Origin: Oxalobacteraceae bacterium
Lineage (GTDB): Bacteria; Pseudomonadota; Gammaproteobacteria; Burkholderiales; Burkholderiaceae_D
Direction of reading: 5' to 3'
NCBI GenBank assembly: GCA_021768485.1
Contig: JAIZVZ010000001.1
Span: 62,001 to 126,000 of the forward strand
DNA: 64,000 bases
Shown here: positions 37,940 to 50,800 of the stretch, in pieces
How the letters are laid out: each line of letters begins with the position of its first letter
Numbering within the stretch: position 1 is the first letter of the stretch
Notes under the pieces: model-generated
Databases searched by the model: none
What the model was told of the DNA's origin: nothing
The model's input: the letters and a program-made list of their open reading frames with translations, nothing else
Position numbers and translations under genes: made by a program

Positions 37940-37955
37940 TGTTCCACGTGAAACA
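37940..37955. promoter_or_regulatory. parS site 1
   Basis: TGTTCCACGTGAAACA matches the widespread bacterial parS consensus TGTTNCACGTGAAACA exactly. It lies about 100 bp upstream of the mnmG start codon. Confidence 0.95.
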
Positions 37956-37978
37956 AACAAGGCTATCGCCGCAGTCAT

Positions 37979-37994
37979 TGTTTCACGTGAAACA
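37979..37994. promoter_or_regulatory. parS site 2
   Basis: TGTTTCACGTGAAACA is a perfect 16-bp palindromic parS, 39 bp from the first. The pair is in the gap between mnmG and the TSUP gene and binds ParB. Confidence 0.96.
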
Positions 37995-46852: not shown

Positions 46853-47080
46853 GAGACAGCTCCCGTTTTTGCAGCGCGTTTTTTGTAGCGACAGCGCACT
46901 GTAAGGCAATCTGAACAAGATGCAAAGGCATAAGCCTGTGGATATGTTGTGCAGGCTTTGTGGGTAAAGACAGGTAAACCAGGACAACTTTTTTTATCCC
47001 AAATCTATCCTGCTGTCATACAGTGTTTACATGCCGTTTATACTTTTTCCAAATGCTTGATTTATCAGAAATTTATCTAC

Positions 47081-47089
47081 TTATCCACA
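47081..47089 (+). promoter_or_regulatory. DnaA box, copy A
   Basis: TTATCCACA, perfect consensus, upstream of a triplet tract and AT-rich sequence. Confidence 0.88.
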
Positions 47090-47106
47090 GAATTGGCAAA
47101 GCCTAA

Positions 47107-47118
47107 CTATTACTACTA
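47107..47118 (-). promoter_or_regulatory. DnaA-trio-like triplets, copy A
   Basis: CTA-TTA-CTA-CTA on the plus strand, complement of 3'-GAT-AAT-GAT-GAT-5'. It lies 17 nt after the DnaA box and directly before ATATATATA-type AT-rich sequence, the order seen in the B. subtilis unwinding system. Confidence 0.55.
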
Positions 47119-47250
47119 AACATATATATAAACAATTAAACAAAAACAAAAAAAAAAATTTTTATTTTTTTTAAAAATCTTTTTTCAAAAAAATTCAAAA
47201 TCTGAAAAAAACAAAAAACGTATTTTGCAAAACATCTCTGTGAATAAAGC

Positions 47251-47259
47251 TGTGGATAA
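47251..47259 (-). promoter_or_regulatory. DnaA box, inverted, copy B
   Basis: TGTGGATAA is the perfect inverse of TTATCCACA. A near match, TGTGAATAA, lies at 47239. Confidence 0.85.
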
Positions 47260-47395
47260 GCATTGAACAATATGCGGACAAGTCGACTTATCATTTCTCC
47301 GGTTTTTTTTATTCACTATCGATCCTCGTGTCATACCGCAGTTACACAGGCTTTATGAAAAATCCAAGTCGCTGATTTATATAAAAAATAAGGAC

Positions 47396-47404
47396 TTATC
47401 CACA
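47396..47404 (+). promoter_or_regulatory. DnaA box, copy B
   Basis: TTATCCACA, perfect consensus, 315 bp from the equivalent box in copy A. Confidence 0.88.
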
Positions 47405-47417
47405 ATAAATGCGACGT

Positions 47418-47432
47418 TTACTACTATTACTA
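47418..47432 (-). promoter_or_regulatory. DnaA-trio-like triplets, copy B
   Basis: TTA-CTA-CTA-TTA-CTA on the plus strand, 13 nt after the DnaA box and followed by T/A-rich sequence. Five triplets, one more than copy A. Confidence 0.6.
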
Positions 47433-47689
47433 TTTTTATATATACCTATTTAAATTAAAACAAAGAACGACACGTCGAACGCAAATCGACAAATCTGGAC
47501 TGCATCAAAAACGCATAAAAAATGTCCGCATTAACATTGAACAATCGTTTTTTTACACAAAATATACGGTTAAAAAATCGTATTCCTGGTCTGTGCAAAA
47601 GTCCTCTTATTATTAAATTTAGCGTCTATAAAGAATAATATCGGCGTATTTAGACGACGTTCGTGAAAAATACTAAAGTAAAATAAAGC

Positions 47690-47815: not shown

Positions 47816-50800
47816 TCACTCGATTTCCAGCGTCATCAAACTGGCATTTCCGCCCGCTGCAGTCGTGTTAATGCACAGCGCACGCTCGGCCACCAGACGC
47901 CACAGCGCAATCGCTTCCATCGCTTTGGTCAAAATCACGCCAACCACGGCGCCTTCACGCTGTGCCAAGGCGACTTGCCATTGCAATGCCGATTCCCGAT
48001 CGAGCAAGGCCATCGCCATCGGGCTGTCCTTGACTTCTTCAACAATATCGATCGCTGCCATGACGATGTTCGGCAAGGCGGGCGGTAAGAGTGCGGCGCC
48101 GGCCTTGCTTAACACGATACGATTACCGCTTGCTAATACCGCGGCAATTTGATTGAGTAACGATGGCGTATCGCTGGCGGCGCAAAAAATCGTGCCGCGC
48201 GCGGCAAAGGCCAGGCTATTGTTTTCCCCGGTAGGGCCAGGCAGCATGATAGAGGTCCCTGACAGGCTGCAACGTGCATAGTGCGTACAAAGGCGCTCGA
48301 GCTCCCTGTGTGCGCCCTGGGCCCAGGTTTGCAGCGCAATAAGGGCAGGCGTTGCACGTGCATCGATGACGTCCTCGGCCTCGACGCTTGCTTGCTGTAA
48401 GCGATGCAGATATAAAGGGCCGCCGGCTTTAGGGCCGGTTCCCGAATTGCCTTCGCCGCCAAATGGCTGAACGCCGACCACCGCACCGACGATATTGCGA
48501 TTGACGTAAATATTACCGACGTGAGCCTTGCCGGTAATAAAATCGACTGTTTCATCAATGCGTGTGTGAATACCGAGAGTCAAACCATAACCGCTGGCAT
48601 TGATGGTCTCGACTACTTGCGGCAATTGATCGCGCCGGTAACGAATCACATGCAAGACTGGGCCAAATATTTCTTGCGTTAATTGCGACAGCGATTTGAT
48701 TTCAATAATCGTCGGCGCCACAAAGGTGCCGAATGCAACAGCAGGATCGGTCTCTGGCAACGCCAGGCTGAAGACATTGGCGCCGCCGGCCTGGAAGGCG
48801 CCGATATGGGCTTGCAAGACTTGTTGCGCTTCACTATCGATGACAGGGCCGATATCGGTGGCCAGACGATCAGGATTACCGATTTTTAATTCCTGCATCG
48901 CCCCCTTGAGCATGGTGATGACTTTATCGGCAATTTCTTGTTGCACGTACAAAACACGCAAGGCTGAACAACGCTGGCCCGCACTATCGAACGCCGACAT
49001 CAACACGTCTTGCACCACTTGCTCGGGCAAGGCCGAGGAATCGACGATCATGGCATTTTGGCCGCCCGTTTCCGCAATTAGCGGCAAATCGAGTCCACCT
49101 TCGTCGACGGCGCGCTGGGCCAGCGTGCGATTGATCGATTGCGCCACGGCACTCGAACCGGTAAAGATGACACCTTTGACACGGCTGTCATGGGTCAAGG
49201 CGGCACCGACGACTTCTCCACTGCCTGGCAATAGTAGCAAGGCCTGCTCAGGAATGCCGGCTTGATGCATCAGTTGCACAGCGCGCGCGGCAATCAAGGG
49301 GGTTTGTTCAGCCGGCTTGGCCAGCACCACATTGCCGGCAGCGAGAGCGGCAGCGACTTGTCCGGTAAAAATAGCCAATGGAAAATTCCACGGACTGATA
49401 CAGGCCAGCGGTCCTAAAGGCTTGCCATCGGCCAAGGGCGCTGCCGACAAGGGATCGATTTGCATGCTGTAATAACGCAAGAAATCGACGGCTTCGCGGA
49501 TTTCGGCAATCGCGTTTGGAATCGATTTGCCTGCTTCGCGAATGGCCAGTGCCATCAACTCCAGACGGTGTAATTCAAACAGATCGGCAGCCCGGTACAG
49601 TATGGCGGCGCGCTCGGCGCGCGTGGTCGTTTTCCATGTCTCGAAATAGGTCGATGCCGCCGCCAGCGCGGCATCGACTTCTTCGCGATCGGCGTCGCTG
49701 ACATGACCGACGATATCGCGACGGTCAGCCGGATTACAGATGGCTTGATAGAGTTTGCCAGCATCGGTCTTGCCAGCATTGCTCTTGCCATTGTCTTGCA
49801 CCTGACGCAGCGACGGCCGTGCCTGCCAGTTGGCTTGATTGAAATGCTTCAATGCACTGCTTAATTTATGCAATTGCGATTCGTCGCTGAGATCGAGTCC
49901 GCTGGAATTTTTTCGCGTACTGCCAAACATCTGTGAAGGTAAAGCGATATACGGATGTGGCATGCCGGCCAATAGTGTCGCTTGCGCAACGGGATCGGCG
50001 ACCAGCGTGGCAATCTCGATTTTTTCATCGACAATTTGATTGACGAATGACGAGTTGGCGCCATTTTCGAGCAAACGCCGCACCAGATAAGGCAACAAGG
50101 TTTCATGCGAACCGACCGGCGCATAGATGCGGCAAGGCCGGTTCAAATTATCGGCGCCGACGACTTGATCGTACAGCGTTTCGCCCATGCCGTGCAGGCA
50201 TTGAAATTCATAATGCGTAATGCCTTTTTTCTTGGCCCAGGTATAAATGGTCGACAGCGTGTGGGCATTATGTGTCGCAAATTGTGGATACAAGACATCA
50301 TTGACTGCCAGCAGTTTCCCTGCGCATGTCAGATAAGACAGGTCGGTATAGACTTTGCGCGTATAAACAGGATATTCGGGCATGCCATCGACTTGGGCGC
50401 GCTTGATTTCGCTATCCCAATAAGCGCCCTTGACCAGCCGGACCATGAATTTGCGGCCGCTGCGGCGCGCCAGATCGGCCAGAAAATCGATCACAAAAGG
50501 ACAGCGCTTTTGATAGGCCTGGACCACGAAACCGATGCCATCGAAGCCGCTCAGCTGTTCGTCGAAAGCCAGTGCTTCCATCAAGTCCAGCGACAGTTCG
50601 AGACGATCGGTTTCTTCGGCATCGATATTGATACCGATGTCATAATTTTTTGCGAGCACAATCAAATTGCGCAAACGCGGCAGCAGTTGTTGCATGACGC
50701 GGCCATGCTGGGCCCGGCTGTAGCGCGGATGCAGTGCCGACAACTTGACTGAAATACCGGGACCGGTATGAATGCCGCGCCCTTTGGAGGCCGCGCCAAT

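Follow-up and report, generated by a model that had tools for sequence, protein, structure and literature searches.

The chromosome origin of replication (oriC) of the Oxalobacteraceae genome studied here very probably lies at 46.9–47.5 kb of the window, the stretch of 64,000 nucleotides that was analysed. We consider it highly likely that this oriC consists of two direct, diverged but complete initiation modules 315 bp apart, which descend from a dnaA-dnaN origin that was relocated and duplicated, with each module probably self-sufficient. Repeated complete origin modules whose number and orientation differ between the members of a bacterial family are new, and among the matches listed no account of them in Oxalobacteraceae was found in the open literature.

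The contig of 161,504 bp that holds the window carries four perfect TTATCCACA DnaA boxes. Three of these are at the module locus, accompanied by further boxes with one mismatch, and the fourth is beside dnaA, approximately 46 kb away. The cumulative GC-skew minimum of the contig falls near window position 48,058, beside the module locus, and the least stable separate 60-mers of the 64-kb window (ranks 1 and 2) start at 47,122 and 47,404, one in each copy. A first-pass annotation of this DNA had proposed a candidate oriC here, and the three perfect boxes, the least stable 60-mers and a skew minimum close to 47 kb rather than far from it all support the proposal. The window genome is in 241 contigs and its own skew comes from one of them; two complete relatives were sampled in addition. 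In the first (G138), dnaA is at 1 kb and the modules are at 355–356 kb, that is, 353 kb apart; the skew is negative in 10 of 12 stretches before the modules, positive in seven of eight after them, and negative in four of the five stretches between dnaA and the modules. In the second (G001), the modules are at 5.417–5.418 Mb (C1:5417456-5418040), and dnaA, located at the record start, follows 719 kb later; the skew is negative in seven of eight stretches before the modules and positive in 11 of 12 after. The skew switch coincides with the modules, not with dnaA, in both sampled complete relatives.

An origin at dnaA was rejected, as one perfect box is present there and the skew of the two relatives passes dnaA without a switch. 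A phage or plasmid origin was likewise rejected, since the locus is flanked by a GMC oxidoreductase and putA and lies next to the skew minimum. Approximately 9 kb from the origin are two parS-like sites (37,940–37,994), of which the one at 37,940 has one mismatch and the one at 37,979 is perfect and counts in favour of an origin here.

Copy A occupies approximately 46,921–47,205 of the forward strand, with an aligned unit of about 230 bp at 46,921–47,151, and copy B approximately 47,236–47,466 of the same strand. In copy A, an inverted upstream DnaA box with one mismatch (ATATCCACA, 46,937–46,945, reverse strand) is followed by a second inverted, DnaA-like box, also with one mismatch (TTACCCACA, 46,959–46,967, reverse strand), at a conserved position with the consensus TTGTGGAnAA. 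On the forward strand there follow a T-run (46,989–46,995) that starts the conserved TTTTTATCCA element, TGTCATAC at the conserved ATACA element (47,014–47,021), the main DnaA box TTATCCACA (47,081–47,089) and, 17 nt past this box, a DnaA-trio-like array (CTATTACTACTA, 47,107–47,118). The adjoining AT-rich tract (47,119–47,205), presumed to be the unwinding element, contains the least stable 60-mer of the window (from 47,122). An extra inverted DnaA box with one mismatch is found 5' of copy B (TTATTCACA, 47,239–47,247, reverse strand). Copy B itself has a perfect inverted upstream box (TTATCCACA, 47,251–47,259, reverse strand) and, on the forward strand, a T-run (47,303–47,310), TGTCATAC (47,329–47,336), the main box TTATCCACA (47,396–47,404) and a DnaA-trio-like array 13 nt past it (TTACTACTATTACTA, 47,418–47,432). 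Its AT-rich tract (47,404–47,463) is the second least stable 60-mer. The inverted box, T-run, direct box, triplets and AT-rich tract ascribed to each copy by the first-pass annotation were thus all located. It gave 46,930–47,480 as the extent of the whole; the unit is larger than the landmarks it named.

These landmarks recur as had been described, at 314–315 bp and, for one of them, 308 bp: TGTGGATA at 46,937 and 47,251 (offset 314), TGTCATAC at 47,014 and 47,329 (315), TTATCCACA at 47,081 and 47,396 (315), and TTACTACTA at 47,110 and 47,418 (308). When 46,925–47,165 was compared without gaps at 350 offsets, the top two were 315 (42.7% identity) and 314 (40.7%), against a mean of 28.6% (sd 3.0%). 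Gapped local alignment of copy A with copy B scored 57.5, a value reached by none of 1000 dinucleotide shuffles (mean 20.5, sd 3.5, maximum 36), so that self-similarity stands far above a shuffled background. The interior from the T-run to just 5' of the main box (46,989–47,078 versus 47,301–47,393), a comparison free of the main box, the upstream boxes, the triplets and the AT tract, still scored 28.5. None of 2000 shuffles attained this score (mean 11.0, sd 2.1, maximum 22), and 155 real AT-rich windows scored at most 16.5. The repetition covers sequence beyond the boxes alone, in agreement with the original suggestion that a whole initiation unit had been duplicated. Copy A is also matched by a profile (46,991–47,134) and by a whole-genome model (C1:108929-109149, E 6e-35), as is copy B (47,306–47,446; C1:109238-109463, E 8.3e-35); both the profile and the model were trained with the two window copies, and independent support comes from the alignment of A with B and from BLAST in relatives.

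The likeness of the two copies could in principle reflect convergence on a common grammar of boxes, T-runs and AT tracts in AT-rich DNA, with no duplication. DnaA origins in general do share boxes and AT tracts, and a sequence model built from 66 modules (R1) matches weakly across the phylum: outside the family it found no match in 131 of 399 genomes of the order, and in the rest of the phylum it gave weak matches in 17 of 59 genomes (best E 4.3e-15). Such matches outside the family are weak and non-specific and may in part represent shared DnaA-box grammar. We nevertheless regard convergence as extremely improbable, given that the interior free of boxes, triplets and AT tract exceeds all 2000 shuffles and all 155 real AT-rich windows, and that inverted copies in genus g22 (Herminiimonas type) are 93–100% identical at five loci, which requires copying. 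Duplication is therefore the reading adopted below.

A BLAST search with the 621-bp region, which is independent of any trained model, gave matches in 114 of 195 family genomes, and in many of these a single locus was matched two or three times. An iterated profile then identified 148 modules in 71 of 79 loci, the set being composed of the window, 18 putA regions and 60 loci hand-chosen around BLAST matches to cover genera. Nine of the 71 loci have a single module, 37 have two direct modules, 10 have two inverted modules and 15 have three direct modules, shares that reflect the hand choice of loci from the 114 matching genomes. The eight loci where the profile detected no module are all putA regions, three of them from genomes with a module elsewhere (G001, G021 and G023). 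Spacing from start to start ranges from 315 bp, the smallest and that of the window, to approximately 3.6 kb. Model R1, which its 66 training modules and their source genomes match by construction, found a match in 374 of the 392 family genomes and in 42 of the 44 genera; no R1 match was obtained in the other 18 family genomes, seven of which are at least 90% complete. By hand count 55 of the 374 have one match and 319 two or more, where five candidates were scored per genome and counted regardless of co-location. A 17-letter trio motif was present in records of Collimonas, Herbaspirillum, Herminiimonas, Undibacterium, Massilia and Glaciimonas (80 of 107 stretches listed), genera that we take to be Oxalobacteraceae, in keeping with the family assumed in the first-pass annotation, and among the matches listed many of these named records have two matches per stretch. 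The motif occurs in unrelated genera as well, as expected by chance in so large a collection.

Several loci have features of their own. At L144:2657-5377, an open frame of 906 amino acids lies between two direct modules; from motifs in its translation, our reading is that it encodes a signalling protein of the GGDEF/EAL type. At L117, two divergent modules flank a frame of 544 amino acids and a frame that appears LysR-like in translation. In G004, a partial second module (L368:1338-1418, model positions 2–72) adjoins a full one and is possibly a decaying copy.

The 5' part of the module consensus comprises the inverted box CTGTGGATAA, a GGATATCC stretch, the second inverted box-like element TTGTGGAnAA and a T-run with TTTTTATCCA; the 3' part continues with ATACA, TTAT-type words, TTGATT, the main box CTTATCCACAGAAAA, CGTTAACTATTACTACTATT and TATATATA. 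Across the profiled loci, 135 of 148 modules have a perfect main box. In 142 of the 148 this box is preceded, at a distance of 156–160 bp, by an inverted box with no more than one mismatch, which is perfect in 122; the search was confined to 149–160 bp. Conservation extends to both ends of the repeated loci. Among the 62 first and 62 last copies, the main box is perfect in 55 and 57, respectively; 60 at either position have two or more triplets, 55 first and 48 last copies have three or more, and a TATATA or GTATAC tract is present in 49 first and all 62 last copies. The possibility that one copy is a relic was rejected, since both positions mostly retain their boxes, triplets and AT tracts.

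Modules fall into two spacer types. The long type (GTTAAC) accounts for 98 modules, with 17–21 nt from box to first triplet in 91 of them, and the short type (GTTTAC) for 42, with 13–14 nt in 40; eight are untyped, among them window copy A (spacer 17). Nineteen of the 22 fully typed direct loci that contain both types have the long type first and the short type last, and three are arranged otherwise (two long-short-long, one short-long-long); the 22 loci are phylogenetically related, and the order is described as a pattern. Four further loci, which include the window and an inverted locus, have an untyped first copy and the short type at the end.

This order would suit a specialisation in which replication starts at one copy, while the other serves as a regulatory site that binds DnaA for titration or timing and has been retained because of its boxes rather than as an unwinding element. 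The datA locus is a site of this kind. The copies in the window are indeed unequal: B combines a perfect upstream box with a 13-nt spacer, and A has a longer AT tract. Copy A could be weaker or regulatory, given its imperfect upstream box and 17-nt spacer. However, trio arrays and TATATA/GTATAC tracts, which titration would not need, are kept at both positions, and the loci that display the spacer order are not phylogenetically independent. A purely regulatory role for one copy is, on balance, rather unlikely, and two origin modules remain the preferred description.

We also considered a division of labour for bidirectional replication, with each module loading one of two helicases. Two copies are the commonest state (47 of 71 profiled loci), and in g22 six of seven profiled pairs are inverted. 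On the other hand, 37 of the 47 pairs are direct, which would place both modules in action on the same strand, and 15 loci have three copies and nine have one. Such a partition is accordingly improbable.

The position of the module relative to dnaA was followed in genomes where both could be located. Of 21 such family genomes, hand-picked and weighted to single or weak matches, eight have one weaker module 1.0–1.3 kb downstream of where the DnaA domain starts (genera g45, g20, g52, g8, g50, g9, g11 and g59; the match in G007 is partial, E 7e-4), seven have the module approximately 14–63 kb from dnaA on the same contig, and six have it on another contig. In five of the eight adjacent cases (L362–L366), the module lies within or borders on the gap that separates the dnaA frame from the next long frame, presumably dnaN. 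Among 18 complete genomes of other families, hand-picked to include outgroups with a match near the record start, the module directly follows dnaA in 11 (4/4 in f31, 4/4 in f25, 1/1 in f14 and 2/3 in f20), and the best match is elsewhere in seven (one f20, two f5, two f49, one f27 and one f51). One of the 11 (G689, f20, L353:1562-2049) has two module-like matches approximately 316 bp apart in the dnaA-dnaN gap, with clear boxes in the first only, and G603 has a further match across the record start; a single copy is therefore not universal even in other families. One module right after dnaA is probably the ancestral state, although the seven genomes with best matches elsewhere and the pair in G689 blur this picture.

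Complete family genomes with strong modules have them at distances from dnaA of approximately 6 kb (G255) to 719 kb (G001, the largest). Three genomes (G016, G020 and G023) have one strong module away from dnaA, which indicates that relocation and duplication are separable events. The simplest order is a dnaA-adjacent origin, then relocation, then duplication: a single dnaA-dnaN origin would have moved away from dnaA in the lineage of the window, by 46 kb as now seen, and would subsequently have been duplicated.

The age of the duplication appears to differ between lineages. The two window copies are 73.7% identical, close to the median of 74.9% for modules of different genera (300 random pairs), and a divergence of this size fits an old duplication. 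In a tree of 82 modules (at most two loci per genus), copies group by position in g6 and g56 and cluster within the genus in g13, g46 and g49; window copies A and B fall apart without strong support, and the deep nodes are weakly supported. Five of the 10 inverted pairs, all in g22 (L108, L109, L110, L111 and L113, with copies 0.76–1.2 kb apart), are 93–100% identical, a sign that these copies were homogenised or duplicated recently. The mixed signals suggest that the duplication is old in some lineages and that the copies were homogenised, or arose recently, in others. The claim of an old duplication in the window thus fits the divergence of A from B, and is left less certain by a tree poorly supported at depth. 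Outside the family, two f49 loci each carry a direct pair of box-plus-trio units, separated by 611 bp in L355 and by 428 bp in L358, and module doubling may have occurred more than once in evolution.

From this anatomy we infer how a module would operate. DnaA would occupy both the inverted upstream boxes and the main box, which lie approximately 157 bp, or close to 15 helical turns, apart; the main box would guide a DnaA filament onto the DnaA-trio strand, and the trio-bound DnaA would melt the adjoining AT-rich tract for helicase loading. The near-constancy of the distance suggests that the upstream inverted box and the main box come face to face within one nucleoprotein complex. Most copies stay intact even as their number, spacing and orientation change between genomes, an indication that modules act on their own, and each is most likely a self-sufficient unit that opens DNA itself. 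An extra module might make initiation more efficient or more robust. Tentatively, and as a possibility only, the family origin could be viewed as a set of interchangeable, self-sufficient modules, every one capable of unwinding DNA and initiating replication, with number (one to three), spacing (0.3–3.6 kb) and relative orientation all free to evolve; one origin would then provide two or three alternative start sites with specialised long- and short-spacer types.

Bacterial origins are usually treated as one unit with one unwinding site, and this family repeats the complete unit. Its natural examples with one, two and three copies, direct and inverted, amount to a ready-made experiment on the minimal origin unit. 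They bear on whether orientation matters for the loading of two helicases, on how initiation is held to once per cycle with several units, and on the departure of origins from dnaA, and they allow the purpose of a second starter to be asked. They are also relevant to origin predictors that retain one best unwinding site per chromosome.

Among known systems, the module most resembles the basal origin unwinding system (BUS) model, in which a DnaA box guides DnaA onto trios and neighbouring DNA is opened (PMC8287927, PMC6669920). In the BUS, the DnaA box, spacer, CTA/TTA triplets (trios on the other strand) and AT-rich tract have the same order and orientation as here. The rule given in PMC8287927 asks for a DnaA box with up to two mismatches and three or more trios within 16 bp of it. 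Copy B falls within this rule (perfect box, spacer 13, five triplets), while copy A has a perfect box and four triplets with a spacer of 17, one over the limit, and 91 of 98 long-type modules (17–21 nt) exceed it. A longer spacer is allowed by the published program where a second weak box lies between, and a single final candidate is returned in more than 99% of genomes, so that repeats would not have shown (PMC8287927). In contrast to the BUS as described there, family origins mostly have two or three complete copies, and most of these have an inverted box approximately 157 bp upstream. Ori-Finder 2022 labels all possible trios within a predicted origin (PMC10225481), and the report on the Herminiimonas arsenitoxidans genome matches skew transitions to oriC and terminus (PMC5670224).

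In the dnaA-dnaN origins of other families of the order Burkholderiales (for example L360 and L361), this module lies within or beside the gap that follows dnaA, whereas the window has a doubled origin at a distance of 46 kb from dnaA. Bipartite origins, such as those of Helicobacter pylori (PMC8235120) and Bacillus subtilis (named in PMC4403523), likewise have more than one cluster of DnaA boxes per origin. In H. pylori two box clusters accompany one unwinding element (PMC8235120), whereas in the window boxes and unwinding tract are repeated together, and two clusters sharing one unwinding element are not what is found, each copy having its own AT-rich tract and triplet array. Multiple origin-like regions per chromosome have been proposed earlier, among them double origins of individual strains. 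The putative double origins listed in DoriC, for example those of Acidaminococcus fermentans and M. bovis BCG, share with the window the presence of more than one such region on a chromosome (PMC4403523). The DoriC cases concern individual strains in which dnaA or a larger segment is duplicated or the origins lie at a great distance from each other, whereas the arrangement described here is a compact module repeated within 0.3–3.6 kb across a family.
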